A DNA stretch of 64,000 bases, from positions 1-64,000 of the forward strand of contig JAENZL010000011.1 of the NCBI GenBank assembly GCA_016841265.1. Direction: 5' to 3'. The translations under genes were made by a program, and so were the position numbers. The DNA is from Methanobacteriota archaeon (GTDB lineage Archaea; Halobacteriota; Methanosarcinia; Methanosarcinales; Methanosarcinaceae). Of this stretch, positions 11,331 to 32,363 are shown piece after piece (position 1 is the first letter of the stretch; each line of letters starts with the position of its first letter). Under the pieces are notes generated by a model. That model ran no database searches, was not told the DNA's origin, and worked only from the letters and a program-made list of their open reading frames with translations.

Positions 11331-11345
11331 GGTACATTTACACCG

Positions 11346-11718: not shown

Positions 11719-14130
11719 ATGAGCAAACTAACTACCGGGAGTTTTTCTATAGAAGATCTGAAAGACGTTCAGATCACAATTAATAGTATTGTAGGGGCAG
11801 CAAAAGAGGTGGCTGAAGAAGAAGAACTCGGCCCCATGGGCCCGACTCCTTTTGCTGGCATAGCAGATTACAGGAGCTGGAACTTAACCCTGCTCGACCG
11901 CTATGAGCCTGTAGTCACCCCCATGTGTGACCAGTGCTGCTACTGTACCTATGGACCGTGTGACCTTTCAAAGAACAAGAGAGGAGCCTGCGGTATCGAC
12001 CAGATGGGCCACAACGGAAGGGAATTCTTCCTCCGTGTAATTACAGGAACTGCCTGCCACGCCGCCCACGGTCGCCACCTGCTTGACCATGTGATAGAAG
12101 TATTTGGAGAAGACGTCCCCCTCAATCTTGGAGAATCAAACGTCTTAACACCAAACGTCACAATCTGCACAGGGCTCTCTCCAAAGACCCTTGGGGAATG
12201 CAGAGCTCCGATGGAGTATGTTGAAGAACAGCTCACCCAGCTCCTTGCAACCATCCACGCAGGGCAGGAATCCGCAGAAATTGACTACGACTCAAAGGCC
12301 CTCTTCAGCGGCAGCCTGGACCACGTCGGCATGGAAGTTTCCGATATCGCCCAGGTCACAGCATACGACTTCCCGAAAGCCGACCCTGACGCCCCACTTA
12401 TTGAAATCGGAATGGGGACCATTGACAAGTCCAAGCCACTTATCGTTGCCATCGGGCACAACGTGGCCGGTGTAACCTACATCATGGACTACATGGAAGA
12501 CAACGACCTGACCGATAAGATGGAAATCGCAGGTATGTGCTGTACCGCGTTCGACATGACCAGGTACAAGGAAGCTGACAGGAGAGCCCCCTACGCCAAG
12601 ATCGTCGGATCCCTGGCAAAGGAACTCAAGGTCATCCGCTCAGGGATGCCTGATGTCATTGTTGTTGACGAACAGTGTGTCCGTGGAGACGTCCTGTCAG
12701 AATCCCAGAAGCTCAGGATCCCTGTGATCGCTTCCAACGAGAAGATCATGGCCGGACTGCCTGACCGCACAGATGCCGATGTTGACGCAACCATCGAGGA
12801 ACTCAAGTCCGGAGCAATCCCGGGTTGTGTGATGCTTGACTATGACAAACTCGGAGAACTCGTCCCGAAGCTTGCCAATATAATGGCTCCGATCCGTGAC
12901 GCAGAAGGTATCACCGCAATTCCGACAGAAGAGGAATTCAAAGTATACGTCGACAAGTGTGCAGATTGCGGAGCTTGCCTGCTGGCCTGCCCGGAGGAAC
13001 TCGACATCCCCGAAGCCATGGCATTTGCGAAGGATGGAGACTACTCCTACCTTGAAGGTCTTCACGACATCTGTATCGGCTGCCGCCGCTGTGAACAGGT
13101 CTGTAAGAAGGAAATCCCGATCCTCAATGTGATTGAAAAGGCCGCACAGAAGGCAATTTCCGAAGAGATCGGTCTGGTAAGAGCTGGCAGAGGCCAGGCA
13201 AGTGACGCCGAAATCCGTGCGGAAGGCCTGAACCTCGTTATGGGTACAACCCCGGGTATCATCGCAATCATCGGATGTCCGAACTACCCCTCCGGGACCA
13301 AGGACGTCTACCTCATTGCCGAAGAATTCCTGAAGAGGAACTACCTCTTAGCAGTAAGTGGATGTTCCGCAATGGACATCGGCATGTTCAAAGATGAAGA
13401 CGGCAAGACCCTCTACGAAAGGTACCCCGGTGGCTTCTATGGTGGCGGACTGCTTAACACAGGTTCCTGTGTATCCAACGCCCACATCAGTGGAGCAGCT
13501 GAGAAAGTAGCCGGAATCTTTGCAAGCAGAACCCTGGAAGGCAACCTGGCAGAAATTGCAGACTACACCCTTACCCGTGTAGGCGCCTGCGGACTTGCCT
13601 GGGGAGGATACTCCCAGAAAGCAGCCGCAATCGGAACCGGATGCAACATCTACGGTGTCCCTGCAGTGCTCGGACCTCACGGCTCCAAGTACAGGAGAGC
13701 CCTGATCGCCAAGAACTACGACGAATCCAAGTGGAAAGTCTACGACGGAAGGAACGGCGAAGAGATGGCAATCCCACCAGCACCGGAATTCCTGCTGACA
13801 ACCGCAGAAACCTGGCAGGAAGCAATCCCGATGATGGCAAAGGCCTGCATCCGTCCATCTGACAACAACATGGGCCGGTCCATCAAGCTGACTCACTGGA
13901 TCGAGCTTTCCAAGAAGTACCTCGGCGTAGAGCCGGATGACTGGTGGAAGTTCGTCAGGAACGAAGCCGACCTCCCACTTGCCAAGCGTGAAGAACTTCT
14001 CAAGAAACTCGAAGCAGATCACGGATGGGAAATCGACTGGAAGAGGAAGAAGATCATTTCCGGACCGAAGATCAAGTTCGACGTCTCGGCACAGCCTACT
14101 AACCTCAAGAGACTCTGCAAGGAGGCCTGA
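11719..14130 (+). CDS. cdhA: CODH/ACS complex alpha subunit (CO dehydrogenase), copy 1
   Basis: Catalytic CO dehydrogenase subunit of the acetyl-CoA decarbonylase/synthase complex; it oxidises CO or reduces CO2 at a Ni-Fe-S C-cluster in the cytosol. The 803 residues include the N-terminal cysteine cluster [12 protein letters not shown] (about 71-82), which binds inter-subunit and B-type clusters. Two ferredoxin-like 4Fe-4S motifs peculiar to the archaeal enzyme follow: [12 protein letters not shown] (about 414) and [11 protein letters not shown] (about 452). C-cluster cysteines are near [14 protein letters not shown] and GACGLAWG. It begins the six-gene cdh1 operon; cdhB follows after 2 bp. 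It is clearly related to, but not identical with, the copy at 24255. Confidence 0.97.
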
Positions 14131-14132
14131 AA

Positions 14133-14645
14133 ATGGTAGACACCACCAAGAACACCAAACTTTTCACGACCTACGGTGTGACCACCTCCAAGGCAATTAC
14201 CCCCGAGATAGCAGCCAAGATGATTTCAAAGGCAAAGAGGCCGCTCCTTGTTGTAGGAACCAAGGTCCTTGACCCTGAACTTCTTGACCGCGCAGTAAAA
14301 ATTGCACAGAAGGCAAACCTTCCGATTGCAGCCACCGGCAGCTCCATGCCTGGCTTTGTTGGCAAGGAAGTAGATGCCAAATACATCAACCTGCACCAGC
14401 TAGGATTCTATGTAACAGACGACGCATGGCCAGGCCTTGATGGAAACGGGACCTATGACACCCTCATCGTCCTGGGACACATCAAGTACTATGTCAACCA
14501 GGTGCTGTCCGGAACCAAGAATTTCTCCGATGTAAAAGCAATTTCAATCGACAGAGGCTACGTCCAGAACGCTACAATGTCCTTCGGGAACCTGAGCAAG
14601 GCAGACCACTATGCCGCCCTGGATGAAATAATAGAGAACTTATAA
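14133..14645 (+). CDS. cdhB: CODH/ACS complex epsilon subunit, copy 1
   Basis: A 170-residue small subunit that forms the alpha2-epsilon2 CO dehydrogenase component with CdhA. It has a Rossmann-like fold ([35 protein letters not shown]), and suggested roles include flavin or electron-transfer docking. It has no cysteine cluster. Its ribosome binding site, AAGGAGG, lies inside the end of cdhA, so the two are translationally linked. It differs from the operon 2 copy at many residues, for example [11 protein letters not shown] here against [11 protein letters not shown]. The zone of perfect identity between operons begins 10 bases after its stop codon. Confidence 0.95.
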
Positions 14646-14670
14646 ATTTGATAAAGGAGGCGAAAAATAA

Positions 14671-16080
14671 ATGGCAGACGAATTCCCATTTGAAATTTCC
14701 CCAATGTATGAAGGCGAAAGAGTAAGAAAAGACGGCATGTTTGTCGAACTCGGTGGACCCAAATCAATGGGTCTGGAACTCGTCCGGGCAGCAGAGATGG
14801 ACGCGATTGTAGACGACAAAGTCACAATCGTCGGGCCTGACATCAAGGACATGGAAGAAGGCAAAACTTACCCCTGGGCAATGGTCTTTAACATCGGCGG
14901 AGAACTTGTCGAACCTGACCTTGAATCCGTTGTTGAAAGGCGTGTCCACGACTTCGTGAACTACTGCCAGGGTGTCATGCACCTGAACCAGAGGTATGAT
15001 GTCTGGATGAGGATTTCCAAAGACACAGCCGGAAAGATCGACTCCCTCGAGGCCTTCGGTCAGGCAGTCATGATGCTCTTCAAGACCGAACTTCCCTTTA
15101 TCGAGAAGATGCAGGCAACCTTCTACACCGATGAAGCAGCAGTCAAGGAGCAGCTGGACAACGCAATGGACATCTTCAAAGCCAGAGACGCCAGGACCAA
15201 GGACCTCCACGATGAAGACGTTGATGTCTTCTACGGCTGCACACTCTGCCAGGCATTCGCTCCAACCAGTGTCTGTGTGGTCACCCCTGACAGGGTTGCT
15301 CTCTGTGGTGCAATCAACTGGTTCGACGGCCGCGCTGCCGCAAAGGTAGACCCAGAAGGCCCACAGTTCGAGCTGGCCAAGGGAGAAGTAATCGACGAGC
15401 TCAGCGGTGAATACACCGGAGTCAACGAGATTGCAAAGAAACTCTCCGGCGGAGAATTTGACAGGATCAAGATCCACTCCTTCTTCGAGTTCCCACACAC
15501 CTCATGCGGCTGCTTCGAAGTTGTAGGGTTCTACATCCCTGAAGTCGACGGTATCGGATGGGTTAACAGAGAATTCCAGGGAATGTCCCCCAACGGACTC
15601 GGATTCTCAACCATGGCAGGTCAGACCGGTGGTGGGAAGCAGGTAGTAGGTTTCCTCGGTGTTGGTGTGAACTACTTCTACTCCCCCAAGTTCATCCAGT
15701 CTGATGGCGGATGGAACAGGGTTGTCTGGCTCCCCGCCTCATTCAAAGAGAAGATTGCAGAAACCATCCCTGCTGACATCATCGACAAGATCGCAACCGA
15801 AGCAGATGCTCCGGATGTCGACGCCCTGAAAGCCTTCCTGCTGGAGAAGAACCACCCCGTTGTTGCAAACTGGGCAGCAGAAGAGGAAGAAGAAGAGGAA
15901 GAAGAAGAGGAAGAAGAAGCTGTCGCAGCAGCCCCAATGATGATGCCTGCAGCAGGCTTCCAGATGCCCGCAATGCCAATGGTCTCCGGTGGATCAGGCA
16001 GTGGAATCAAGCTGACCTTCAAGAACGCAAAGATCACCATCGACAAGATGATCATCAGCGAGAAGAAAGCAAAGAAGTGA
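14671..16080 (+). CDS. cdhC: CODH/ACS complex beta subunit (acetyl-CoA synthase), copy 1
   Basis: Acetyl-CoA synthase: joins CO, a corrinoid-bound methyl group and CoA at the Ni-Ni-4Fe4S cluster A. The expected ligands are present as Cys190 and Cys193 in YGCTLCQ and Cys279 and Cys281 in TSCGCF; these correspond to the 189/278/280 ligands of the family when Met is not counted. Residues about 404-417 form an uninterrupted Glu-rich linker of about 14 residues followed by an Ala/Met/Pro-rich segment, as in Methanosarcina CdhC. It lacks the large N-terminal domain of bacterial AcsB. AGGAGG lies 10 nt upstream. The gene appears identical in both operons. Confidence 0.97.
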   Translation: MADEFPFEISPMYEGERVRKDGMFVELGGPKSMGLELVRAAEMDAIVDDKVTIVGPDIKDMEEGKTYPWAMVFNIGGELVEPDLESVVERRVHDFVNYCQGVMHLNQRYDVWMRISKDTAGKIDSLEAFGQAVMMLFKTELPFIEKMQATFYTDEAAVKEQLDNAMDIFKARDARTKDLHDEDVDVFYGCTLCQAFAPTSVCVVTPDRVALCGAINWFDGRAAAKVDPEGPQFELAKGEVIDELSGEYTGVNEIAKKLSGGEFDRIKIHSFFEFPHTSCGCFEVVGFYIPEVDGIGWVNREFQGMSPNGLGFSTMAGQTGGGKQVVGFLGVGVNYFYSPKFIQSDGGWNRVVWLPASFKEKIAETIPADIIDKIATEADAPDVDALKAFLLEKNHPVVANWAAEEEEEEEEEEEEEAVAAAPMMMPAAGFQMPAMPMVSGGSGSGIKLTFKNAKITIDKMIISEKKAKK

Positions 16081-16130
16081 GTGACACGCAGGTGCTCTAA
16101 AACCGAAAAACAATTCCAAAGAGGTATTCT

Positions 16131-16892
16131 GTGACAAAAGTTATTGCAATAACGGGAAAAGGCGGGACAGGTAAAACAGCGGTAGCGGCTCTTCTTATCC
16201 GCTACCTTTCTAAAAATGACAACTTTTTACTTGCAGTTGACGCAGATGCGGATACGAACCTGCCCGAAACCCTGGGCTGTGAGGTAGTAAAGACTATCGG
16301 GGACGCAAAGGAGGCACTCCAGGAGGAGATTACAAAGCCGAAACCTGACCACCCCGACATGAATAAGGAATCGATACTCCAGAGTAAGATCTACGAGATT
16401 ATTGAAGAGATGCCAGGCTACGACCTCCTGGTCATGGGCCGGCCCGAAGGTGCAGGCTGTTACTGTTATGTAAACAACCTGCTTCGGGGCATCATGGACA
16501 AATTAGTTGTCAACTATGATGTGGTGGTCATTGACACGGAAGCCGGACTCGAGCACTTCAGCCGGAAGATCATCCGGAACGTCGATAACCTGATCGTGGT
16601 GACTGACGCCTCCCGCAGGGGTTTCAGAACTGCCGAAAGGATTCATGAACTTGTGGATGAACTGGAATCTAATATTAGCAATATACATGTTATTGCAAAC
16701 AAGGTCACAGATGCCAACCGCGATAAGATCGAAAAACTTGCCGGGGATCTAAAACTTGACCTTATAGGCATGGTTCCCCTTGACCCGAAAGTTGAGGAAC
16801 TGGACATAGGGGGTATCCCCCTCTCCGAACTTCCAGAGGATTCGGCTGCAGTGATTGAAATCGAAAAGATTGCAAAGAAACTGGGGTTCTAA
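16131..16892 (+). CDS. CooC-like nickel-insertion ATPase, copy 1
   Basis: A P-loop ATPase of the MinD/CooC group, 253 residues, likely to help load nickel into CODH or acetyl-CoA synthase. It has the deviant Walker A GKGGTGKTAVAAL at residues 9-21, the signature VDADADTNLPETLG, and the metal-binding style motif GAGCYCYVNN. The switch region VIDTEAGLEHFSR and the MRP-type VVTDASRRG segment follow. The start is GTG at 16131 with GAGGT about 8 nt upstream. Its place between cdhC and cdhD is normal for Methanosarcina cdh operons. A 182-bp gap separates it from cdhD. Confidence 0.93.
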   Translation: MTKVIAITGKGGTGKTAVAALLIRYLSKNDNFLLAVDADADTNLPETLGCEVVKTIGDAKEALQEEITKPKPDHPDMNKESILQSKIYEIIEEMPGYDLLVMGRPEGAGCYCYVNNLLRGIMDKLVVNYDVVVIDTEAGLEHFSRKIIRNVDNLIVVTDASRRGFRTAERIHELVDELESNISNIHVIANKVTDANRDKIEKLAGDLKLDLIGMVPLDPKVEELDIGGIPLSELPEDSAAVIEIEKIAKKLGF

Positions 16893-17074
16893 CCCCGGTT
16901 TCAAACAATTTTACGAACCTGTGGACACTGCAGGACAAAATGGGGGTTCCGGAGATACTGGACCCTCTGGCATGCAATTGAGATTTAAGCGGACCTTACA
17001 GATTCATACAAAACACATCGCATTAACTCAGTCACTCGTGAAAACGGATAATCAACTGAAACGGTGAGGTTTAC

Positions 17075-18385
17075 ATGGCAAAGAAGATGAAATTAACTGA
17101 CATTACAAACATGTTCTCGGGCATGGACATAGAAGCCCTTGAAGGTGTCACTATTGAAGGGGACATTGAACTTGACCTGGGAGGTCTTGGCGGTGGCTCT
17201 GACCCGATGCTTGCTGCAGCCCTCGGCCAGGAGAGTGCAGTACTTGCCCAGCACTTCGCAAGGATTGCAGGCATGTTCGGTTACCCGGTAGGGATCGGAG
17301 GTCCTGCAGCCGCTGCACCAGCAGCCGCTTTAGCTGCACCCAAGTTTAAGGATCTCATCCCTGCAAAATTCGATGTCGCAAACATGGCAGATTGGGCAAC
17401 CCCAATACAGGAAGTAAGGATAGGGAACACTTCCGCAGACGGTGGAAGCCGTGGAAAGGCAGTCCACGTTGGTGGAGAGAAGGCCCTTCCGTTCTACTTC
17501 GACGCGGACATGCCTAACAGGAACCAGGTTACCATCGACGTATTCGACATGCGCATCGGCCTTGCAAAGGCTGTAAAGCAGAACTACGACGAGGTCATGG
17601 ACAGCCCAGGAGAATGGGCAAAGAAGAACGTTGAACAGTTCAACGCTGACATGATCACAATCCACCTGATTTCAACCGACCCGCTCATCAAGGACACCCC
17701 GGCTAAGGAAGCAGCCAAGACTGTTGAAGAAGTTCTGCAGGCCGTTGACGTCCCAATAGCGATCGGTGGATCAGGCAACCCACAGAAGGACCCCGAAGTA
17801 CTCGCAAAAGCAGCAGAAGTTGCAGAAGGCGAACGCTGTCTCCTTGCATCTGCAAGTCTGAACCTGGACTATGCAGCAATTGCAGAGGCCGCATTAAAGT
17901 ACGACCACGATGTGCTTTCCTGGACACAGCTGGACATGAACTCCCAGAAGGAACTCAACAGGAAGCTCATGAAGCAGTGCAACGTGCCCAGGGAAAGAAT
18001 CATCATGGACCCAACCACGGCAGCACTAGGGTATGGTCTCGACTACGCTTACACCAACATGGAGCGCATCAGACTTGCAGCCCTTATGGGTGATGACGAA
18101 CTGACATTCCCAATGTCTTCAGGTACCACCAACGCATGGGGTGCCCGTGAGTCATGGATGGTTGGATCCCCACTAAAGGAAGACTCAGACTGGGGACCGA
18201 GAGAATACAGAGGCCCGATATGGGAGATTGTCACAGGTCTGTCCCTTGCACTTGCAGGAAACGACCTCTTCATGATGATGCACCCGACATCGGTTGCTTT
18301 CCTGAAGAAGGCCACACAGACACTCTTTGGTTCGATAGATGAAGAGCCTGTTGACATTTCCAACTGGATCGCAGCGGAGGTGTAA
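17075..18385 (+). CDS. cdhD: CODH/ACS complex delta subunit, copy 1
   Basis: The 436-residue delta subunit of the corrinoid iron-sulfur protein. With CdhE it receives the methyl group from methyl-tetrahydrosarcinapterin and passes it to CdhC. After an acidic N-terminal part ([17 protein letters not shown]) and an Ala-rich linker, the rest is a TIM barrel typical of CdhD/AcsD, with [24 protein letters not shown] and [18 protein letters not shown] strands. It has no cysteine cluster, as expected for the small subunit. GGTGAGG lies about 8 nt before the ATG. cdhE starts 3 bp downstream. Confidence 0.96.
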
Positions 18386-18388
18386 ACA

Positions 18389-19798
18389 ATGAAAATAAAC
18401 AGCCCATTACAAGCCTACAAGTACCTGCCCCAGACCAACTGTGGAGAATGTGGGGAACCCACCTGTATGGCCTTTGCCTCCAAACTGATCGACAGATCCT
18501 TCAAGACTGCAGACTGTCCACCCCTGGTTAAGGAAAAGAAGTTCGCAAAGAAGCTTGCAGAACTCGAAGGCCTCCTTGCCCCGGAAATCCGTGAAGTGAT
18601 CATCGGTGTTGGGGAGAAAGCAGCAAAGATCGGGGGGGACGATGTCCTTTACCGCCACAAGTTAACTTTCTTCAACAAGACAAAGATGTTCTTCGATGTG
18701 GCAGACAACATGGATGAAGCTGCCATTGTGGAGAGAGTAAAGCAGATTGCAGACTTCAGGAAGTTCTATGTAGGCAACTACCTCCTCCTCGACGGTATAG
18801 CAGTAAGAGCCGCGTCCGGCGACCCTGCAAAGTTTGCCGCAGCAGTCAAGAAGGTAGGAGAGACAACAGATCTACCCTTAATCCTCTGTTCTTTTGACCC
18901 TGCAGTCCTAAAAGCAGGCCTGGAAGCAGCAAAGGACAAGAACCCACTGCTCTATGCCGCAAACAAGGACAACTGGAAGGAAGTAGGAGAACTTGCCCTC
19001 GAGTACAAGGTACCTGTGGTAGTATCTGCCATCAATGACCTTGACACACTCAAGACCCTTGCAAAGACATTTGCAGATGCAGGAATTCAGGATATTGTCC
19101 TTGACCCAGGCACAGTGCCGGTAGGCAAGGGACTGAAGAACACCTTCACCAACTTCCTGAAGATCAGGAGAGCAGGAATCGATGGAGACGTCGAGATTGC
19201 TTACCCGATACTGGCCCTTCCGTTCACAGCATGGATGGCAGGAATAGAGGACCCTGTAAATGCATCATACTGGGAAACCGTGATGGCTTCAATGTTCACC
19301 ATCAGATACGGCGACATAATGATCCTCCACAGCATGGAGCCATATGCGGTACTGCCGGAGATGCACCTGGTAGATACCATCTACACTGACCCGAGAACTC
19401 CGGTAGCTGTAGACGGCGCCATGTACAAGGTAGGAAGCCCGACAGCAGATTCCCCGGTATTCTTCACCACCAACTTCGCCCTTACCTACTACACGGTAGA
19501 GAGCGATATCGCATCCAACGGAATCGACTGCTGGTTGCTTGCAGTTGACACCGACGGTATTGGTGTGGAAGCTGCCGTTGCCGGTGGCCAGCTGACCGCC
19601 GACAAGGTAAAGGACGCCTTTGATAAGTCTGACTTCGACCTTAAGAAGGACGTAAACCACAACACCGTTATCATTCCGGGTCTTTCAGCTCGCCTGCAGG
19701 GCGACCTTGAGGACTCCCTCAGTGCAAGCATCAAGGTAGGCCCAATGGACTCCGGCCGGATCCCCGGCTGGATGGAAAAGAACTGGCCAGCAAAATAA
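18389..19798 (+). CDS. cdhE: CODH/ACS complex gamma subunit, copy 1
   Basis: The 469-residue large subunit of the corrinoid iron-sulfur protein. The N-terminal domain carries the 4Fe-4S motif NCGECGEPTCMAFASKL plus a later Cys in KTADCPPL, which is needed to re-reduce the cobalt. A TIM barrel follows (DGIAVRAASGD, VPVVVSAINDLDTLKTLAKTF, DIVLDPGTVPVGKGL). The C-terminal domain, from about residue 330, binds the cobamide. AGGTG sits just upstream, overlapping the end of cdhD. It is the last gene of operon 1, followed by a hairpin terminator. Confidence 0.96.
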   Translation: MKINSPLQAYKYLPQTNCGECGEPTCMAFASKLIDRSFKTADCPPLVKEKKFAKKLAELEGLLAPEIREVIIGVGEKAAKIGGDDVLYRHKLTFFNKTKMFFDVADNMDEAAIVERVKQIADFRKFYVGNYLLLDGIAVRAASGDPAKFAAAVKKVGETTDLPLILCSFDPAVLKAGLEAAKDKNPLLYAANKDNWKEVGELALEYKVPVVVSAINDLDTLKTLAKTFADAGIQDIVLDPGTVPVGKGLKNTFTNFLKIRRAGIDGDVEIAYPILALPFTAWMAGIEDPVNASYWETVMASMFTIRYGDIMILHSMEPYAVLPEMHLVDTIYTDPRTPVAVDGAMYKVGSPTADSPVFFTTNFALTYYTVESDIASNGIDCWLLAVDTDGIGVEAAVAGGQLTADKVKDAFDKSDFDLKKDVNHNTVIIPGLSARLQGDLEDSLSASIKVGPMDSGRIPGWMEKNWPAK

Positions 19799-19824
19799 AT
19801 AAAAAAACAAATGTGAATATTAAA

Positions 19825-19849
19825 ATTCCGTGTCACTATGACACGGAAT
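19825..19849 (+). terminator. Terminator hairpin of cdh operon 1
   Basis: ATTCCGTGTCA and TGACACGGAAT form a perfect 11-bp stem with loop CTA, 26 bp after the cdhE stop. The downstream sequence is only mildly T-rich in this copy. The equivalent in operon 2 shares the stem but has a strong T-run. The 5.2-kb identical repeat ends inside the stem. Confidence 0.7.
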
Positions 19850-20495
19850 AAAATTTATTCCAACTTTTACAAAACGCGATTGACAACATTCCGAAAATGT
19901 TCTGAATTGAAAAAAAGTGGCATAAAAATCGACTTTTTTGCCTTACTGCCATACAGATTTGCTTGTTTTTTACATCCGAATAATTAGCTCAGTAGAAATT
20001 CTCAATTAATGCAAATTAGTTCTTCAACTTTTTTGATTATATATTTCAGGCCATCACGGGGAATTTATTTTGCAAACATTTATAGTAAGTGATTCGGGAA
20101 AAGCAGCCCGCTGAGGCTGGTGGTGAGAGCACTGGAACGGTAAGAAACTAGAGAACAACCGGTTTGAAAACTGAAATAGAACCCGGGCACAAACAGGAGT
20201 TTTTTCATAAATACACCAGGGTTTCTACGGGACAGAAAAATCTTCTTTGACGTGAGAAGTCACTTTGCTTGCACGAATACGCCAGCTAAACTTTGATTGA
20301 GTCGGTTTAAGCCTCAACTAAGAAGTTACTCAACGTCATCAGACTTATTATCGATTGGCTTCAAAACAAACATAACTGAAATCGGTTAATATTGTCACAT
20401 TTACTTCCAATCTCGACATTTTGCGATTTCAAGTTCTCGAAGGGGCAGCACAATTGTGTTCGCCATAGGGTGCCCTGTTGCTTATAGTTCTAGTT
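19850..20495. other. Spacer after cdh operon 1 with a possible structured segment
   Basis: No complete gene was seen. Positions about 20090-20330 are less AT-rich and contain local stems such as CAGCC...GGCTG (20105-20120) and GTGA GAAG TCAC (about 20261-20272). The segment could be a decayed mobile-element end or an uncharacterised RNA. The part nearest the DUF134 gene (20440-20490) has GC-rich inverted pieces that may act as its terminator. Confidence 0.3.
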
Positions 20496-21014
20496 TCAGT
20501 AATGGCTATTGTTGCCACTTTTTTTGCTTCCTTCACTACATTCCTGCTGCTTTTCTTTAGGGCAACAATAATTATTATCAATAAACCTTTTTCCTTTTCC
20601 ATCACCGCCGATTCTGAAAATTAGAGTGGAACCACAATTAGGACAGACTGTGGGACGACACTTGTTGGACTTTGATTCCCACACATGATCGCATTCTTTG
20701 CAGAGAAAATTGACCTTACATTCACCACTATTAACGTATTCTCCACCGGAGATCTCGATCGCTTTTCCGTTGACAAGAGCATCAGCCACCTTCTGTCGTG
20801 CCTTTTGAAGGTCGTTCCAGAAAGTTTTCCGGGATATTCCCATTTTATTAGCAGCCTCGCTCTGCTCCATCTGGAGAAAGTCGCAAAGACGAATAGTCTC
20901 AAGCTCTTCTATGGATAGGTTGGCGATTTCCAGACAGCAAAGAGGAATTTCTCTGGGCTTGTAATAGGTGGCCTTTGGAAAGCAAGACACCCTGCGTTTA
21001 ACTCTATTGACCAT
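20496..21014 (-). CDS. DUF134-family DNA-binding protein with C-terminal zinc ribbon
   Basis: A predicted transcription regulator of about 172 residues. The N-terminal half is a DUF134-type sigma-region-4-like helix-turn-helix: LSIEELETIRLCDFLQMEQSEAANKMGISRKTFWNDLQKARQKVADALVNGKAIEI. The C-terminal half is a zinc ribbon: CKVNFLCKECDHVWESKSNKCRPTVCPNCGS. The start is uncertain: ATG at 21014 gives the family-like MVNRVKRRVSC; a GTG lies at 21035. Two decayed copies of the same gene lie to its right, each next to cdh leader sequence. Control of cdh is therefore an attractive inference, not shown. Confidence 0.85.
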   Translation of the reverse strand: MVNRVKRRVSCFPKATYYKPREIPLCCLEIANLSIEELETIRLCDFLQMEQSEAANKMGISRKTFWNDLQKARQKVADALVNGKAIEISGGEYVNSGECKVNFLCKECDHVWESKSNKCRPTVCPNCGSTLIFRIGGDGKGKRFIDNNYCCPKEKQQECSEGSKKSGNNSHY

Positions 21015-21093
21015 CAAATTGCACTTATGCGACACGTAATAAATAGCTATCGATATATTTTTTTAAAAGTGGCCAATTATAGGTACATGTCGA

Positions 21094-21210
21094 ATAGGAG
21101 TTACGCACTTAAAAAGTAAAACCAAGCACATAAGAACTTGCTATTGATGATGTGCTTTAGATAGTTAGGTGCCTCATGCCACTGTTTATATTCAACTGCG
21201 TAAGTCCTAT
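21094..21210. mobile_element. MITE-like element, family A, copy 1
   Basis: A 117-bp non-coding element bounded by near-perfect inverted repeats: left ATAGGAGTTACGCACTT, right AACTGCGTAAGTCCTAT. A second member lies at 23475-23586. It has no coding capacity. No convincing target-site duplication was found. Confidence 0.7.
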
Positions 21211-21396
21211 TGAACAAGAAAAAGACCCTCTATTTTTATTGAATCTATAAAATTTGATAAATAAGTTCCACCAGTACTTTAATAGCTTCCATCTAGTGTA
21301 TAAATACGCCGAATAAGTTTTACATCCAGATTCTTCAAATCTGCAACTAAATTCTTGATTTCGGTGAACACTTGAGTCAACTACCCGCCACTAAAG

Positions 21397-21509
21397 AGGC
21401 TGTCCAGCAATTCAATTGCAGGGCAAAAACGTGCAAATAAGGCATATAAAGCCTTTAAATCGAAAAAAAAGGAATTTAAATATTACTGGTGATAATTGTC
21501 GGACAGCCT
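21397..21509. mobile_element. MITE-like element, family B, copy 1
   Basis: A 113-bp element with terminal inverted repeats, left AGGCTGTCCAGCAATT (one mismatch) and right AATTGTCGGACAGCCT. Its interior is similar to the element at 57516-57633 (TTCAATT.CAGGGCAAAA near the left end). The left flank reads CTACCCGCCACTAAAG, which resembles the right end of an IS200/IS605 element. It may have inserted into an older remnant. Confidence 0.75.
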
Positions 21510-21603
21510 ATAAAAACAGGGGTATCCTGCTTAGTTTTTCATGAATTATCCTCTAAACCCTGAGCTGCAATTACATTAGATAGATGTTGATATCCGGGCG
21601 GTG

Positions 21604-21946
21604 CATTGAGGCATGAAATCCTCTAAGTTTCAATATTCTCTTTCTCAGTCTGTTTCCTGCATCTTTTTTAAGGTATTCCCCTCCAGAAGTCTCGATCACG
21701 TTTTCATTGACAAGAGCATCATTTGCATTCTGTCGTATATTTTGGATGTTGTTCCAGAAAGATTTCCGGAATACTCCCATTCTGTCAGCGGCCTCATTCT
21801 GCCCTACTGGAGAAAGTCGCAAAGAAGAATGCCTCAAGTTTTTCCAGGGACACATTAATAATTACGAAAACACTTTAGCTGAATTTCACAGAGTTTGTAA
21901 TAAGTAGCTTTTAAGATTCTTGATACTCCACTTAACTCAATCGAGC
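21604..21946 (-). pseudogene. Decayed DUF134 gene, remnant 1
   Basis: The minus-strand translation keeps the DUF134 core in one frame: NEAADRMGVFRKSFWNNIQNIRQNANDALVNENVIETSGGEYLKK (about 21810-21660). It matches SEAANKMGISRKTFWNDLQKARQKVADALVNGKAIEISGGEYVN of the intact gene. Upstream, stop-interrupted VKWSIKNLKSYLLQTL corresponds to VKRRVSCFPKATYYKP. The zinc-ribbon part is lost. Confidence 0.82.
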
Positions 21947-22309
21947 ATCAAAATACGCAAATGAGATGTGATATAAATAATTAACGCTTTGCAGATTAAA
22001 CTATTGACAAAATTAATAAGCCCCGAATCAATTTTTAGGATTCTGTATTTTAAGTACAAAACAAATAGCAATAAACACATAACTGTAAAAAATACGATAA
22101 TAACTATGACGTTTACTTAATAGTTTTGTATCACACATCCGTTAGTAAGGGGACTATTTTTGTCCTTTTTACACATGATTTAACGAAAAAATTCTGCTAA
22201 TCACCGGTACTTTAGTTTTGCCTCTTATTCGAATAAGTTCAGGTTAATTTCGGCTGAAAAATAAGCACATGATGCCTTTTTTTATGTTATTATCACGAGT
22301 CAGCAACTC

Positions 22310-22735
22310 TTAAGAGTTTAGCCAGGATTTATACAACCGAATTGATTTATTATTATAAATATACCAAACAAAAGTGAAAAGTATTTATACTACGTCGCTT
22401 AAGTGTAATTTAGGGGTCTATCCCAAAAGTGCTGTGACCTATTGTAACTTACACTATCGACGAATCATGAATGAACGATTCCGGATAATAAACACTAATT
22501 GTCCAATTGTAATTTTACAACAAGCATAGAACTTTTCGGATAGTCCCTAAGATCTCTTTTTTCTGAGATCTCAACTACTGTTATAACTACTATTATAGGA
22601 CTTGCCCACTTGAGGTCTAAAACAAAAGCAGTGAAATCCCAACTCTTAAAAAATTCAAGTTTTAACTGCTTATTTTACTGTACTTGATTTTGTAGTGCAA
22701 GTGTGCAAATTTTATAAAAAGTTAATAAAGCTAAA
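22310..22735 (+). other. Decayed cdh leader, copy 1
   Basis: This AT-rich sequence is clearly similar to the region upstream of cdhA copy 2 (about 23590-24040). Shared landmarks include GTGTAATTTAGG, AAAAGTGCTGTGAC, CACTAATTGTC, ACTATTATAGGACTT and TTCAAGTTTTAACTGCTT. It lacks about 195 bp that precede cdhA in the intact operon, including the 69-bp tandem repeat. It leads into a cdhA start remnant. Confidence 0.75.
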
Positions 22736-22840
22736 ATGAGCAAATTAACTACCGAAGTTTTTCCATAGAAGATTTTGAATCCGTTCAGATCATTATCAGT
22801 AATATTGTAGGGACGGCAAAGAGGCTGTGAAGAAAAAGTA
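22736..22840 (+). pseudogene. cdhA 5'-end remnant (third cdh copy)
   Basis: About 105 bp corresponding to the first 30-35 codons of cdhA. It begins ATGAGCAAATTAACTACCG, and AGAAGATTTTGAATCCGTTC and ATTGTAGGGACGGCAAAGAG align with both intact genes. A small deletion after codon 6 puts it out of frame. It ends abruptly at about 22842, where DUF134 remnant 2 sequence begins soon after. Some positions match cdhA1 and others cdhA2. Confidence 0.85.
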
Positions 22841-22872
22841 AAAGACCTCATTAAAGCAGGTTCCAAACTGTT

Positions 22873-23090
22873 ACAGGACTTTTGGAGACCTTTCCAGAAA
22901 ATTTTCCGGGATACCCCCATTTAGTCAGCAGTCTCATTCTGCTCTACCTGGAGAAAGTCGCAAAGGCGAATGTCTCAAGCTCTTCCATGGATACGTCAAT
23001 AATTACGAGAAAACTTAGCTGAATTTCGCAGAGTATGATAAGTAGGTTTTAGGATTCTTGATACTCCGCTTAACTCAATCGACAATCAAA
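22873..23090 (-). pseudogene. Decayed DUF134 gene, remnant 2
   Basis: Minus-strand sequence matching the N-terminal half of the DUF134 gene, more closely related to remnant 1 than to the intact gene. It includes MGVSRKIFWKGLQK at the helix-turn-helix (about 22920-22880) and stop-interrupted VKRSIKNPKTYLS upstream. It is cut in the middle of the helix-turn-helix region, right beside the cdhA 5' remnant. Confidence 0.8.
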
Positions 23091-23474
23091 ATACACAAAA
23101 GTGAGGTATTATAAATAACTAACGCTTAAACAATTAAATGATTAATAAAATAAATAAGCTCTGAATTCATTAATAGAATTAGGCATATCAAGTACAAAAA
23201 CAATAGCAATAAACACATAACGCCATAAAATAAGATTATAACTATGACGTTTACTTAATAGTTTTAGATCATATATCCGTTAGTCCTGTGGCTATTTTCT
23301 GCCTTTTAGACCTGATTTAACGTAAAAGTTTTGCTAATCGCGAGTACTTTCGTTTTGCATCTTATTCGAATAATTCCAGGTTAATTTCGTATGAAAAATG
23401 AGTACATGATACCGTTTTTCAAACTTGAGTAGGAATGAAAGACTGTTATGAGATTAGAAAGAAATTATAAAACT

Positions 23475-23586
23475 AGGACTTACGCACTTGAACTATAAAA
23501 TCAGGCACATGCGAACTCTTCAACATTATTCATGTTTATGCAGTTAAGTCTTTACGCTCGTGGTTTTCAGTCCAACTGCGTAAGTC
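23475..23586. mobile_element. MITE-like element, family A, copy 2
   Basis: A 112-bp element with inverted ends AGGACTTACGCACTT and AACTGCGTAAGTC, of the same family as 21094-21210. The corresponding place in the older copy of this spacer block (around 22290-22310) has no element. Insertion therefore seems to postdate the duplication of the block. Confidence 0.68.
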
Positions 23587-23681
23587 ATAAAAACATCATT
23601 TTTTTATTAATATATTTATATCGAACAAAAATGAAAATTATTTATAATACGTCGCCAATGTGTAATTTAGGAGTATATTCA

Positions 23682-23800
23682 AAAAGTGCTGTGACATGCT
23701 GTAAATACTACAATTGGCGATCATAAATAAATGGATTCCCCCAAAAGTTATGAGACCTGCTGTAAATTATACAACTGGAGATCATAAATAAACGGGTTCC
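23682..23800 (+). repeat. 60-bp tandem duplication upstream of cdh operon 2
   Basis: Two imperfect copies of about 60 bp (from about 23682 and 23742), each with AAAAGT..TG.GAC, CTGTAAAT, ACAA.TGG and GATCATAAATAAA. The decayed copy of this region (about 22430-22490) carries only one unit, so the duplication is specific to the operon 2 upstream region. Confidence 0.65.
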
Positions 23801-23900
23801 GGATAATACGCACTAATTGTCTAATTGTAATTTTACAACATGCATGGAACTTTTTGGGCAGTCTCTAAGATCTCCTTTATTATTCTGAGATCGCGACTTT

Positions 23901-23910
23901 ACTATTATAG
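23901..23910 (+). promoter_or_regulatory. Candidate TATA element of cdh operon 2
   Basis: ACTATTATAG lies about 350 bp before cdhA copy 2. It would place the transcript start near 23930 and give a leader of about 325 nt, similar in size to that inferred for operon 1. The same element is kept in the decayed leader (about 22591-22600). Weak support: other AT-rich sites are present. Confidence 0.35.
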
Positions 23911-24008
23911 GACTTACCCACTTGAAATCTAAAACAAAAGCAGTAAACTCCCAAATTTATAAAAATTCAAGTTTTAACTGCTTGATCTACTGTATTTAAT
24001 TTTGTATT

Positions 24009-24145
24009 GTAAGTGTGTAAATTCTATAAAAAGTTAAAAAACGATCTACTAAAAATGTCGTTTAAATAGCTGGAACTGTAAGTGTGAAAGTTCTATGAAA
24101 AGTAAAAAACGACTTACTAAAAATGTCATTTAAATAGCCGGAACT
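24009..24145 (+). promoter_or_regulatory. 69-bp tandem repeat with hairpins in the cdh operon 2 leader
   Basis: Two tandem copies (24009-24077 and 24078-24145) beginning GTAAGTGTG and ending GGAACT. In the first, AAACGA can pair with TCGTTT across about 13 nt; the second has one mismatch. It lies within the likely untranslated leader, 110-250 nt before cdhA. It is absent from operon 1 and from the decayed leader. Confidence 0.6.
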
Positions 24146-24254
24146 TTCAAGCAGACGCCAATATAAATTGCACAGTTAGAATCGGTATGCCGAATATCGT
24201 AAATACAATCCTCTGAGAAAGTGGCTTTAAGCGTATTTAGGAGGCAAAGCTAAA

Positions 24255-26669
24255 ATGAGTAAATTAACTACCGGGAGTTTTTCTATAGAGGATCTGAAAG
24301 ATGTTCAGATCACAATTAACACTATTGTGGGGGCAGCAAAGGAGGCTGCCAAAGCAGAAGATATCGGTCCTATGGGCCCATCCCCGTTCCCGGGTCTTGC
24401 AACCTACAGGGACGACTGGAACCTCAAATTACTTGACCGTTATGAGCCCGTAATCACCCCCATGTGTGACCAGTGCTGTTACTGCACATACGGCCCCTGT
24501 GACCTCTCCAACAACAAGAGAGGTGCCTGTGGAATTGACATGGCCGGACACAACGGCAGGGAATTCTTCCTCCGTGTGATCACCGGTACTGCCTGCCACG
24601 CAGCCCACGGCCGTCACCTGCTTGACCACCTGATCGAGACCTTTGGCGAAGATATCCCTCTTGACCTTGGTCAATCCGACGTCCTGACCCCGAACATCAC
24701 GATTACAACCGGGCAGAGCCCCAAGACCCTCGGGGAAATCAAGCCTGCAATGGAATTCGCAGAAGAACAGCTCACCCAGCTCCTCGCAACTGTCCACGCA
24801 GGCCAGGAATCCGCAGAGATCGACTACGACTCTAAGGCTCTCTTCAGCGGCAGCCTGGACCATGTCGGAATGGAAATTTCCGATATCGTACAGATCGCAG
24901 CCCTCGACTTCCCCAAGGCAGACCCCGAAGCCCCCCTCATTGAGATGGGTATCGGAACTATTGACAAGGAGAAGCCATTCCTCTGTGTAATCGGGCACAA
25001 CGTAGCCGGTGTCACCTACATGATGGACTACATGGAAGAGAATGAGCTGACCGACAAGGTAGAACTTGGTGGACTCTGCTGTACCGCAATCGACCTGACC
25101 AGGTACAAAGAAGCCGATAGAAGACCTCCATACACCAAGGTCGTCGGTTCCATGTCCAAGGAGCTAAAGATCATCCGCTCCGGAATGCCTGACGTCATTG
25201 TTGTTGACGAACAGTGTGTCCGTGGAGACATTGTACCCGAAGCCCAGAAGCTCAATATCCCTGTGATTGCATCCAACGCCAAGATCATGTACGGCCTGCC
25301 CAACAGGGACAACCAGGACGTCGATGCAACCATCGAGGAACTCAAGTCCGGAGCAATTCCGGGTTGTGTGATCCTTAACTACGAGAAGCTCGGAGAAATC
25401 TCCGTAAGGCTCGCTCAGGAAATGCACCCGATCCGCGAAGCAGCAGGAGTCCGGGAAGTCGCATCCGATGAACAGATGAAGGAATGGGTCGACAAGTGTG
25501 CCGACTGTGGCGCCTGCTACCTGGCATGCCCGATTGAGCTGGACATTCCGGAAGCCATGAAGTTCGCCAAGGAAGGAAACTACAGCTACCTTGAAGATCT
25601 CCACGACGCATGTATCGGCTGCCGCCGCTGTGAACAGGTATGTAAGAAGGAAATCCCAATCCTTAGCGTCATCGAAAAGGCATCCCAGAAGATCATCGCT
25701 GAGGAGAAAGGCTGGATGAGAGCCGGCAGAGGTCAGGTATCTGACGCCGAAATCCGTTCAGAAGGCCTGAACCTGGTCATGGGTACAACCCCGGGTATCA
25801 TCGCAATCATCGGATGTCCGAACTACTCCGATTGCGCCAAGGGTGTTTACTACATCGCAGAGGAGTTCCTGAAGAGGAACTACATCGTTGTCGGTACCGG
25901 CTGTGGATCCATGGACATGGGTATGTACAAGGACGAGAATGGCGAAACCCTCTATGAGAGGTTCCCCGGTGGATTCGTATCCGGTGGACTTGTTAACATT
26001 GGATCCTGTGTCTCGAACGCCCACATCACCGGAGCCGCCCAGAAAGTCGCCGGTATTTTCGGTGGCAGAACCATGGAAGGCAACCTCGCAGAAATCTCCG
26101 ACTATATCCTGAACCGTGTTGGGGCCTGTGGCCTTGCATGGGGTGCATTCTCCCAGAAAGCGTCCTCTATCGGAACCGGATGTAACATCTATGGTATCCC
26201 CGCAGTGCTCGGAGCCCACAGTTCCAAGTACAGGAGAGCCCTGATCGCAAAGGACTATGACGAGTCCAAGTGGAAAGTCTACGACGCCAGAAACGGTGAA
26301 GAGATGGCTATCCCACCAGCACCGGAATTCCTCCTGACCACCGCTGAAACCTGGCAGGAAGCAACCCCGATGATGGCAAAAGCCTGCATCCGCCCGTCTG
26401 ACAACAACCTGGGAAGGTCTATCAAACTGACCCACTGGATGGAACTCCACGATAAGTACATCGGCGGACTGCCCGATGACTGGTGGAAATTCGTCAGGGG
26501 TGAGGCTGATATCCCACTTGCCAAGCGTGCTGCCCTCATGAAGATACTCGAAGAGAAACACGGCTGGGAAATCGACTGGAAGAGGAAGAAGATCATTTCC
26601 GGTCCAACGATCAAGTTCGACGTCTCGGCACAGCCCACTAACCTCAAGAGACTCTGCAAGGAGGCCTGA
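24255..26669 (+). CDS. cdhA: CODH/ACS complex alpha subunit (CO dehydrogenase), copy 2
   Basis: The second CO dehydrogenase catalytic subunit, 804 residues. All cluster motifs match copy 1: [24 protein letters not shown] and [11 protein letters not shown], plus the [14 protein letters not shown] and GACGLAWG regions around the C-cluster. Substitutions are spread along the whole length rather than clustered, and one residue is inserted near position 52 (YRDDWN against YRSWN). The last 25-30 codons are nearly the same in both copies. AGGAGG lies 9-14 nt upstream of the ATG. Both copies look fully functional, so two isozymes with different CODH components are expected. Confidence 0.97.
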
Positions 26670-26671
26670 AA

Positions 26672-27184
26672 ATGGTTGACACTACAAAGAACACCAAGCT
26701 CTTTACCAGCTACGGGGTGACCACCTCCAAGGCAATCAACCCTGACATGGCAGCCAAGATGATCTCCAAGGCGAAGAGGCCGCTTCTTGTGGTCGGATCC
26801 GGAGTTCTTAAGCCCGAACTCCTGGACCGTGCAGTTAAGATTGCACAGAAGGCAAACCTTCCGATCGCTGCCACAGGTCACTCCCACGTAGGATTCCTGG
26901 ACAAGGACGTAGATGCCAAGTATATCAATGTGCACCAGCTCGGGTTCTACTTAACCGACCCCAACTGGCCCGGACTTGATGGGAAGGGCAACTACGACAT
27001 GGTTATCGTCCTGGAATTCAAGAAGTACTACATCAACCAGGTACTGTCCGGAACCAGGAACTTCTCCAACTTGAAAGCAATTTCAATCGGTAGAGACTAC
27101 ATCCAGAACGCAACAATGTCCTTCGGGAACATAAGCAGGGAAGACCACTACGTTGCCCTGGATGAATTAATCGACAACTTATAA
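26672..27184 (+). CDS. cdhB: CODH/ACS complex epsilon subunit, copy 2
   Basis: A 170-residue partner of CdhA copy 2, starting 2 bp after it with AAGGAGG inside the end of cdhA. It keeps the [10 protein letters not shown]...[20 protein letters not shown] core. It differs from copy 1 in the loop after this core and in the C-terminal third ([30 protein letters not shown] against [29 protein letters not shown]). Together with CdhA it forms the diverged half of operon 2. Perfect identity to operon 1 starts 10 bases after its stop codon. Confidence 0.95.
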
Positions 27185-27209
27185 ATTTGATTTAGGAGGC
27201 GAAAAATAA

Positions 27210-28619
27210 ATGGCAGACGAATTCCCATTTGAAATTTCCCCAATGTATGAAGGCGAAAGAGTAAGAAAAGACGGCATGTTTGTCGAACTCGGTGGACCCA
27301 AATCAATGGGTCTGGAACTCGTCCGGGCAGCAGAGATGGACGCGATTGTAGACGACAAAGTCACAATCGTCGGGCCTGACATCAAGGACATGGAAGAAGG
27401 CAAAACTTACCCCTGGGCAATGGTCTTTAACATCGGCGGAGAACTTGTCGAACCTGACCTTGAATCCGTTGTTGAAAGGCGTGTCCACGACTTCGTGAAC
27501 TACTGCCAGGGTGTCATGCACCTGAACCAGAGGTATGATGTCTGGATGAGGATTTCCAAAGACACAGCCGGAAAGATCGACTCCCTCGAGGCCTTCGGTC
27601 AGGCAGTCATGATGCTCTTCAAGACCGAACTTCCCTTTATCGAGAAGATGCAGGCAACCTTCTACACCGATGAAGCAGCAGTCAAGGAGCAGCTGGACAA
27701 CGCAATGGACATCTTCAAAGCCAGAGACGCCAGGACCAAGGACCTCCACGATGAAGACGTTGATGTCTTCTACGGCTGCACACTCTGCCAGGCATTCGCT
27801 CCAACCAGTGTCTGTGTGGTCACCCCTGACAGGGTTGCTCTCTGTGGTGCAATCAACTGGTTCGACGGCCGCGCTGCCGCAAAGGTAGACCCAGAAGGCC
27901 CACAGTTCGAGCTGGCCAAGGGAGAAGTAATCGACGAGCTCAGCGGTGAATACACCGGAGTCAACGAGATTGCAAAGAAACTCTCCGGCGGAGAATTTGA
28001 CAGGATCAAGATCCACTCCTTCTTCGAGTTCCCACACACCTCATGCGGCTGCTTCGAAGTTGTAGGGTTCTACATCCCTGAAGTCGACGGTATCGGATGG
28101 GTTAACAGAGAATTCCAGGGAATGTCCCCCAACGGACTCGGATTCTCAACCATGGCAGGTCAGACCGGTGGTGGGAAGCAGGTAGTAGGTTTCCTCGGTG
28201 TTGGTGTGAACTACTTCTACTCCCCCAAGTTCATCCAGTCTGATGGCGGATGGAACAGGGTTGTCTGGCTCCCCGCCTCATTCAAAGAGAAGATTGCAGA
28301 AACCATCCCTGCTGACATCATCGACAAGATCGCAACCGAAGCAGATGCTCCGGATGTCGACGCCCTGAAAGCCTTCCTGCTGGAGAAGAACCACCCCGTT
28401 GTTGCAAACTGGGCAGCAGAAGAGGAAGAAGAAGAGGAAGAAGAAGAGGAAGAAGAAGCTGTCGCAGCAGCCCCAATGATGATGCCTGCAGCAGGCTTCC
28501 AGATGCCCGCAATGCCAATGGTCTCCGGTGGATCAGGCAGTGGAATCAAGCTGACCTTCAAGAACGCAAAGATCACCATCGACAAGATGATCATCAGCGA
28601 GAAGAAAGCAAAGAAGTGA
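27210..28619 (+). CDS. cdhC: CODH/ACS complex beta subunit (acetyl-CoA synthase), copy 2
   Basis: The encoded 469-residue protein is identical to the product of 14671-16080, including the cluster A cysteines (190, 193, 279, 281) and the Glu-rich linker. Third positions also agree, so purifying selection on protein alone cannot explain the match. The two bases just before its AGGAGG differ from copy 1 and mark the left edge of the identical block. It would serve with CdhA/CdhB copy 2, or be pooled with product from operon 1. Confidence 0.97.
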   Translation: MADEFPFEISPMYEGERVRKDGMFVELGGPKSMGLELVRAAEMDAIVDDKVTIVGPDIKDMEEGKTYPWAMVFNIGGELVEPDLESVVERRVHDFVNYCQGVMHLNQRYDVWMRISKDTAGKIDSLEAFGQAVMMLFKTELPFIEKMQATFYTDEAAVKEQLDNAMDIFKARDARTKDLHDEDVDVFYGCTLCQAFAPTSVCVVTPDRVALCGAINWFDGRAAAKVDPEGPQFELAKGEVIDELSGEYTGVNEIAKKLSGGEFDRIKIHSFFEFPHTSCGCFEVVGFYIPEVDGIGWVNREFQGMSPNGLGFSTMAGQTGGGKQVVGFLGVGVNYFYSPKFIQSDGGWNRVVWLPASFKEKIAETIPADIIDKIATEADAPDVDALKAFLLEKNHPVVANWAAEEEEEEEEEEEEEAVAAAPMMMPAAGFQMPAMPMVSGGSGSGIKLTFKNAKITIDKMIISEKKAKK

Positions 28620-28669
28620 GTGACACGCAGGTGCTCTAAAACCGAAAAACAATTCCAAAGAGGTATTCT

Positions 28670-29431
28670 GTGACAAAAGTTATTGCAATAACGGGAAAAG
28701 GCGGGACAGGTAAAACAGCGGTAGCGGCTCTTCTTATCCGCTACCTTTCTAAAAATGACAACTTTTTACTTGCAGTTGACGCAGATGCGGATACGAACCT
28801 GCCCGAAACCCTGGGCTGTGAGGTAGTAAAGACTATCGGGGACGCAAAGGAGGCACTCCAGGAGGAGATTACAAAGCCGAAACCTGACCACCCCGACATG
28901 AATAAGGAATCGATACTCCAGAGTAAGATCTACGAGATTATTGAAGAGATGCCAGGCTACGACCTCCTGGTCATGGGCCGGCCCGAAGGTGCAGGCTGTT
29001 ACTGTTATGTAAACAACCTGCTTCGGGGCATCATGGACAAATTAGTTGTCAACTATGATGTGGTGGTCATTGACACGGAAGCCGGACTCGAGCACTTCAG
29101 CCGGAAGATCATCCGGAACGTCGATAACCTGATCGTGGTGACTGACGCCTCCCGCAGGGGTTTCAGAACTGCCGAAAGGATTCATGAACTTGTGGATGAA
29201 CTGGAATCTAATATTAGCAATATACATGTTATTGCAAACAAGGTCACAGATGCCAACCGCGATAAGATCGAAAAACTTGCCGGGGATCTAAAACTTGACC
29301 TTATAGGCATGGTTCCCCTTGACCCGAAAGTTGAGGAACTGGACATAGGGGGTATCCCCCTCTCCGAACTTCCAGAGGATTCGGCTGCAGTGATTGAAAT
29401 CGAAAAGATTGCAAAGAAACTGGGGTTCTAA
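28670..29431 (+). CDS. CooC-like nickel-insertion ATPase, copy 2
   Basis: Identical in sequence to the gene at 16131: GTG start, GKGGTGKT P-loop, GCYCYVN motif. Since each operon has its own copy, dosage follows the operon in use. It lies between cdhC and cdhD with the same 50-bp and 182-bp spacers as in operon 1. Confidence 0.93.
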   Translation: MTKVIAITGKGGTGKTAVAALLIRYLSKNDNFLLAVDADADTNLPETLGCEVVKTIGDAKEALQEEITKPKPDHPDMNKESILQSKIYEIIEEMPGYDLLVMGRPEGAGCYCYVNNLLRGIMDKLVVNYDVVVIDTEAGLEHFSRKIIRNVDNLIVVTDASRRGFRTAERIHELVDELESNISNIHVIANKVTDANRDKIEKLAGDLKLDLIGMVPLDPKVEELDIGGIPLSELPEDSAAVIEIEKIAKKLGF

Positions 29432-29613
29432 CCCCGGTTTCAAACAATTTTACGAACCTGTGGACACTGCAGGACAAAATGGGGGTTCCGGAGATACTGG
29501 ACCCTCTGGCATGCAATTGAGATTTAAGCGGACCTTACAGATTCATACAAAACACATCGCATTAACTCAGTCACTCGTGAAAACGGATAATCAACTGAAA
29601 CGGTGAGGTTTAC

Positions 29614-30924
29614 ATGGCAAAGAAGATGAAATTAACTGACATTACAAACATGTTCTCGGGCATGGACATAGAAGCCCTTGAAGGTGTCACTATTGAAGGG
29701 GACATTGAACTTGACCTGGGAGGTCTTGGCGGTGGCTCTGACCCGATGCTTGCTGCAGCCCTCGGCCAGGAGAGTGCAGTACTTGCCCAGCACTTCGCAA
29801 GGATTGCAGGCATGTTCGGTTACCCGGTAGGGATCGGAGGTCCTGCAGCCGCTGCACCAGCAGCCGCTTTAGCTGCACCCAAGTTTAAGGATCTCATCCC
29901 TGCAAAATTCGATGTCGCAAACATGGCAGATTGGGCAACCCCAATACAGGAAGTAAGGATAGGGAACACTTCCGCAGACGGTGGAAGCCGTGGAAAGGCA
30001 GTCCACGTTGGTGGAGAGAAGGCCCTTCCGTTCTACTTCGACGCGGACATGCCTAACAGGAACCAGGTTACCATCGACGTATTCGACATGCGCATCGGCC
30101 TTGCAAAGGCTGTAAAGCAGAACTACGACGAGGTCATGGACAGCCCAGGAGAATGGGCAAAGAAGAACGTTGAACAGTTCAACGCTGACATGATCACAAT
30201 CCACCTGATTTCAACCGACCCGCTCATCAAGGACACCCCGGCTAAGGAAGCAGCCAAGACTGTTGAAGAAGTTCTGCAGGCCGTTGACGTCCCAATAGCG
30301 ATCGGTGGATCAGGCAACCCACAGAAGGACCCCGAAGTACTCGCAAAAGCAGCAGAAGTTGCAGAAGGCGAACGCTGTCTCCTTGCATCTGCAAGTCTGA
30401 ACCTGGACTATGCAGCAATTGCAGAGGCCGCATTAAAGTACGACCACGATGTGCTTTCCTGGACACAGCTGGACATGAACTCCCAGAAGGAACTCAACAG
30501 GAAGCTCATGAAGCAGTGCAACGTGCCCAGGGAAAGAATCATCATGGACCCAACCACGGCAGCACTAGGGTATGGTCTCGACTACGCTTACACCAACATG
30601 GAGCGCATCAGACTTGCAGCCCTTATGGGTGATGACGAACTGACATTCCCAATGTCTTCAGGTACCACCAACGCATGGGGTGCCCGTGAGTCATGGATGG
30701 TTGGATCCCCACTAAAGGAAGACTCAGACTGGGGACCGAGAGAATACAGAGGCCCGATATGGGAGATTGTCACAGGTCTGTCCCTTGCACTTGCAGGAAA
30801 CGACCTCTTCATGATGATGCACCCGACATCGGTTGCTTTCCTGAAGAAGGCCACACAGACACTCTTTGGTTCGATAGATGAAGAGCCTGTTGACATTTCC
30901 AACTGGATCGCAGCGGAGGTGTAA
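29614..30924 (+). CDS. cdhD: CODH/ACS complex delta subunit, copy 2
   Basis: Identical to the product of 17075-18385, a 436-residue TIM-barrel subunit of the corrinoid iron-sulfur protein. The 182-bp upstream spacer is also identical, including the GGTGAGG ribosome binding site. The spacer is unlikely to be constrained base by base, so its identity is a good indicator of recent sequence exchange. Confidence 0.96.
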
Positions 30925-30927
30925 ACA

Positions 30928-32337: not shown

Positions 32338-32363
32338 ATAAAAAAACAAATGTGAATATTAAA

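Follow-up and report, generated by a model that had tools for sequence, protein, structure and literature searches.

Methane formation from acetate centres on the enzyme CODH/ACS, of which many Methanosarcina have at least two copies. The cdh genes of Methanosarcina are preceded by a long 5' leader with a role in expression (Anderson et al. 2009, as cited in PMC5112694). In RNA-seq of M. acetivorans, both cdh operons reached higher levels with acetate than with trimethylamine (PMC12918732). MreA is reported to be a global regulator of methanogenic pathways that acts on acetate catabolism genes (PMC3600222). The DUF134 family is still named for its "unknown function", and judged by title, none of 22 papers mentioning DUF134 concerns the gene studied here, cdh or regulation in methanogens.

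The window, a stretch of 64,000 nt, comes from a 3.65-Mb genome of the Methanosarcina group (G000). It contains two cdh operons in tandem on the forward strand, at 11719-19798 (promoter/leader at ~11270-11718) and at 24255-32337 (placed from the ORF listing and the named loci given below), which we call the unlinked and the linked operon, respectively. Between them lies, on the reverse strand, an intact gene for a DUF134 protein with a zinc ribbon (20496-21014, 172 aa), our candidate regulator. The ORF listing puts the start of this gene at a GTG at 21035, which we rejected, as the codon is GCG, ACC or GTA in orthologues. Since this GTG is not conserved and the orthologue in genome G080 has a stop codon immediately 5' of the ATG, the ATG at 21014 is the correct start, in agreement with the sequence-only reading. 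PF02001 was matched at five places genome-wide, three of them at this locus, namely, the intact gene and two relics. Profile search and repeat analysis bear out the earlier description of one intact and two decayed DUF134 genes between the cdh operons, with each decayed copy divergent from a copy of the cdh promoter/leader. In relic 1 (21571-21926, reverse strand), residues 16-101 are still recognizable, with a PF02001 match at 21670-21807; relic 2 (22849-22977, reverse strand) contains stop codons. Tandem copies of one repeat unit fill much of the stretch. The unit runs from a reverse-strand DUF134 through a spacer and a cdh leader to a cdhA start; in the middle unit, this last part is a truncated cdhA that starts at 22736. 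The two operons themselves are base-for-base identical over ~5.2 kb, from cdhC to just past cdhE (14655-19847 and 27194-32386), which reflects either gene conversion in the recent past or an artefact of the assembly. The proteins encoded by cdhA and cdhB of the two operons are only 78-79% identical.

The protein belongs to DUF134 (PF02001, 85 bits against a cut-off of 27), with a C-terminal zinc ribbon, and falls outside the NCBIfam equivalog PRK04217 (58 bits against a cut-off of 115). Its helix-turn-helix (HTH) matches sigma region 4 and SigZ-type HTH domains weakly in both sequence and fold. A fold search from a low-confidence predicted model hit HTH domains and sigma region 4 domains, in every case with E >0.01, and a sequence search of the PDB gave weak zinc-ribbon matches only, among them a weak RNA polymerase subunit P-like ribbon (E 0.003). 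The architecture proposed at the outset, a sigma-like HTH joined to a zinc ribbon, was confirmed, with the likeness of the HTH to sigma region 4 being weak. We rejected a sigma factor identity, because this archaeal protein gave region-4-like matches only, with no sign of sigma region 2. Eight cysteines are shared by all 26 sequences: C105, C108, C124 and C127, which form the C4 ribbon, and C11, C26, C44 and C99, which the other DUF134 types in the comparison lack. Given the C4 zinc ribbon and the four additional invariant cysteines, the protein could plausibly respond to a metal, Fe-S or redox signal. Matches to DUF134 in a plasmid collection were all distant, at <60% identity.

We then searched 112 genomes of the family with PF02001 and the cdhA model TIGR00314. 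In 16 genomes from three genus groups, a DUF134 gene with a zinc ribbon and a cdhA point away from each other on one contig, ~1.7-3.7 kb apart, and the DUF134-cdhA stretches of these 16 genomes were retrieved and inspected. Proteins of such similarity occur in 3 of the 39 genera of the class. In the Methanosarcina group, every genome with at least two assembled cdhA loci and their upstream flanks (16/16) has DUF134 divergent from exactly one cdhA; the co-localization with cdh elsewhere, whose lack the sequence-only reading had named as grounds for giving up its proposal, is thus present. In G003, the relevant contig begins within cdhA, and fragmentation prevents classification of G089, G100 and G102. 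The cdh-linked DUF134 clade is absent from 11 genomes with a single cdhA (G075, G079, G081, G083, G085, G086, G087, G088, G091, G098 and G103). Moreover, upstream of 26 unlinked or single cdhA genes, over mostly 2.7-3 kb searched, we detected no DUF134 gene, either intact or decayed. The divergent arrangement is also seen in the named loci of Methanosarcina sp. 2.H.T.1A.6, MSH10X1, DH2, STD2_179 and the MAG BL5_bin.6, five records already among the surveyed genomes that add names and not numbers. The linked cdhA resembles cdhA1 of the window in some genomes and cdhA2 in others; coding regions thus seem to have been exchanged between copies, with the promoter type staying with the locus.

Alignment of the regions upstream of linked cdhA genes revealed a 30-nt element, TATTTAT-N6-TCGC-N4-GTGTAATTT, which consists of a TATA box followed by a second box. 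This element is present in the promoter of DUF134 itself, in the decayed copies and in every linked cdh promoter (0-1 mismatch). In the window, it lies at 23639-23668 in front of the linked operon, the predicted target site (forward strand, no mismatch), and at 21016-21045 in front of DUF134 (reverse strand, one mismatch), where it ends 1 nt before the ATG. Further copies precede relic 1 (21950-21979, three mismatches) and relic 2 (23088-23117, two mismatches) on the reverse strand and face away from the cdh-type boxes at 22382-22411, an upstream copy on the forward strand without mismatch that is conserved in linked genomes, and at 23639-23668. The spacing within the element is identical in DUF134 and linked cdh promoters, and similarity stops near its borders.

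The element is nearly specific to this locus. The whole source genome contains three copies of the 17-nt box TCGCNNNNGTGYAATTT and, when up to three mismatches are allowed, five of the 30-nt form, all of them at the DUF134-cdh locus; 100 shuffles of the window gave no site of the 30-nt form. In 24 genomes, which are related, so that linkage and site counts do not represent independent events, the 30-nt form was found at 68 sites at the DUF134-cdh locus, at 7 sites in DUF134 promoters of a sister clade (intact or decayed, one of them assigned by sequence alone) and at 1 site beside a DUF134 remnant in G103. Seven other sites each had three mismatches; a reversed-pattern control gave 15 in all, and these few remaining sites match the chance level. 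No site was found in four complete genomes lacking both DUF134 clades (G079, G081, G083 and G098). A longer, 33-nt form matched at 29-33 positions in each linked cdhA promoter tested and was at chance level in the 26 promoters of unlinked or single cdhA genes, among them that at 11300-11720 of the window. By conservation, the linked cdh promoter element ranks in the top 0.5% of 30-nt windows, with 93% pairwise identity versus ~50% for the nearby DUF134 relics. It is less conserved in the DUF134 promoter, in which 18 of 21 copies scored 16-20 of 20 (the maximum in 163-nt stretches of the window sampled outside the locus was 15) and the other three had indels or a score of <16. In one linked genome (L105, G097:C41:54000-68000), the module has multiplied: four cdh-type boxes stand in tandem ahead of the linked cdhA, and DUF134 relics could not be detected between these boxes.

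The linked and unlinked operons also differ in their leaders. The promoter/leader at 11300-11720 belongs to a different, common family of cdh promoters that lacks the box; unlinked and single cdh operons can be aligned with one another over ~450 nt of this region. With its promoter at ~23639 and a start site inferred from the TATA box, the linked operon would have a leader of ~585 nt (23669-24254). The sequence-only reading had placed this leader at 23880-24255; according to the aligned promoter, it would begin upstream of 23880. Only its last ~140 nt are common with the unlinked family, and we therefore rejected the idea that the linked promoter is a mere copy of the other cdh promoter. The simplest history would be that, in a duplicated cdh operon beside DUF134(-NifX), the common cdh promoter was replaced by one of the DUF134 type. 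A 68-nt tandem duplication (24030-24145) makes the linked leader longer than in most relatives, and genome G001 has further copies of it. Genome G074, with a DUF134 orthologue at C1:1217171-1217677, is presumably M. acetivorans C2A. If it is the strain of the RNA-seq study (PMC12918732), an unlinked, box-free cdh operon responds to acetate without the box.

The upstream module comprises, behind its cdh-type box, a leader copy and the truncated cdhA start (22412-22760, ATG at 22736). Among 15 aligned loci, a reverse-strand site is paired with a forward-strand site in the upstream module in 14 and in the cdh-proximal module in 11, almost always at a distance of ~400 nt. Conservation of the upstream module extends from the reverse-strand site through the forward-strand site and ~165 nt past it and then drops to the neutral level. 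These first ~165 nt of the linked leader are found in both modules (22412-22600 and 23669-23900) and are conserved across species in the upstream one, although cdhA has decayed there. They fold around a long closing stem, in which ATCCGAAAAG is paired with CTTTTCGGAT, with a consensus energy of -19.1 compared to -1.4 (standard deviation, 1.5) for shuffled columns. For most pairs, 26-30 of the 30 sequences retain the pairing; two-sided changes occur at four pairs only, consensus folding gave no covariation bonus, and Rfam had no credible match within 19800-24400. The fold weakly suggests a candidate structured or small RNA. Because conservation reaches ~165 nt past the forward-strand site and a structure signal is present there, the upstream module is probably a working part rather than debris; a pure relic would be at odds with its conservation profile.

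In a protein tree, the cdh-linked DUF134 clade is separate from the sister clade, in which DUF134 is followed by a NifX-like gene, DUF169 and, in some cases, an ABC protein. Traces of NifX persist in the cdh-linked clade: one genome has it fused in frame to DUF134, and several more retain remnants. The window has such a remnant of this ancestral partner at ~20435-20506 on the reverse strand (tblastn, 83% identity over 24 aa), overlapping the 3' end of DUF134. The fusion, which joins DUF134 and its zinc ribbon to a NifX-like domain beside cdh, lies in Methanosarcina sp. 2.H.T.1A.6 (L046:6941-7813) and may hint at a signal linked to Fe-S or metalloclusters. DUF134 itself evolves under purifying selection, with a dN/dS of 0.18 as the median of 105 orthologue pairs. 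The ancestor probably had DUF134-NifX, of which NifX decayed and DUF134 was retained; this pattern argues that the retained role is with cdh and not with NifX.

The back-to-back position of DUF134 and the linked operon, together with an element nearly confined to their two promoters, points to a private regulator of one operon. We consider it likely that the DUF134 protein acts locally, regulating transcription of the neighbouring cdh operon alone and probably that of its own gene. Its sigma-region-4-like HTH would bind the box. Since the box sits downstream of the TATA box and ahead of the expected start of transcription, a protein bound there would get in the way of the transcription complex, and repression of both DUF134 and the linked operon would be the likeliest sign of control. 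A duplicated cdh operon under a DUF134-type promoter would thereby provide two separately controlled isoforms. The protein might instead activate the linked operon through the box, as the sigma-region-4-like HTH and the ribbon, which weakly resembles that of RNA polymerase subunit P, would be well suited to contacts with the transcription machinery. In archaea, the usual binding site of activators is upstream of the TATA box. The position of the box downstream of it speaks against activation, which we regard as rather unlikely. The proposal in its original form, regulation of both cdh operons, could appeal to the same enzyme being encoded by each; it was rejected as extremely improbable, because box and linkage are missing at 11300-11720 and at every unlinked cdhA. 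What stands of it is the candidate regulation of the linked operon, which is backed by conserved linkage, the common element and purifying selection.

Two further readings do without regulation of cdh by DUF134. The box might be read by something else, for instance a global acetate regulator or some promoter factor, with DUF134 merely co-regulated with the linked cdh; co-regulated neighbours likewise have promoter elements in common, and MreA reportedly acts directly on acetate genes (PMC3600222). However, the box is restricted to the promoters of DUF134 and of DUF134-linked cdh and is missing from the four complete genomes without these DUF134 clades, and the unlinked operon, which is also higher on acetate (PMC12918732), has no box, so that we judge this reading distinctly improbable. 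Alternatively, DUF134 might have come to lie beside a duplicated operon by chance and had its promoter copied, so that linkage and element are leftovers with no regulation today. Tandem duplications and decayed genes indeed abound in the region, and the similarity of the elements could partly stem from an old promoter duplication. Still less probable than a foreign factor in our view, this reading conflicts with an element far better conserved than the DUF134 relics around it, with the low dN/dS and with the retention of DUF134 while NifX was lost.

Local regulation by DUF134 would give one CODH/ACS copy a candidate regulator with a precise predicted operator and offer a testable reason for having two copies; it would also be the first proposed target for the widespread DUF134 family. 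On a more speculative and, to our mind, doubtful extension, DUF134 proteins with a zinc ribbon would constitute unrecognized cysteine-rich, possibly Fe-S- or redox-sensing archaeal repressors, the duplicated CODH/ACS operon would have been rewired by capturing a DUF134 promoter, and the upstream module would be kept for a separate leader RNA or a second operator pair.

Compared to known systems, the protein shares the DUF134 domain with PF02001 and PRK04217 and adds the zinc ribbon and four invariant cysteines that are missing from the short DUF134 type of the same genome. Its likeness to sigma-70 region 4 and SigZ-type HTH domains is weak, and no counterpart to sigma region 2 was detected. 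A related system is the sister DUF134-NifX-DUF169 operon of Methanosarcina, whose DUF134 protein is 63-80% identical and in which, as in the window, the box directly precedes the start codon; that operon does not lie beside cdh and has an intact NifX, whereas beside cdh NifX is decayed, fused or lost. The linked operon resembles the cdh operons with described 5' leader control in having a long leader, but the 5' part of this leader is unlike the common cdh one. Finally, MreA acts globally and, as far as the available text shows, is not linked to cdh, whereas DUF134 has one predicted local target.
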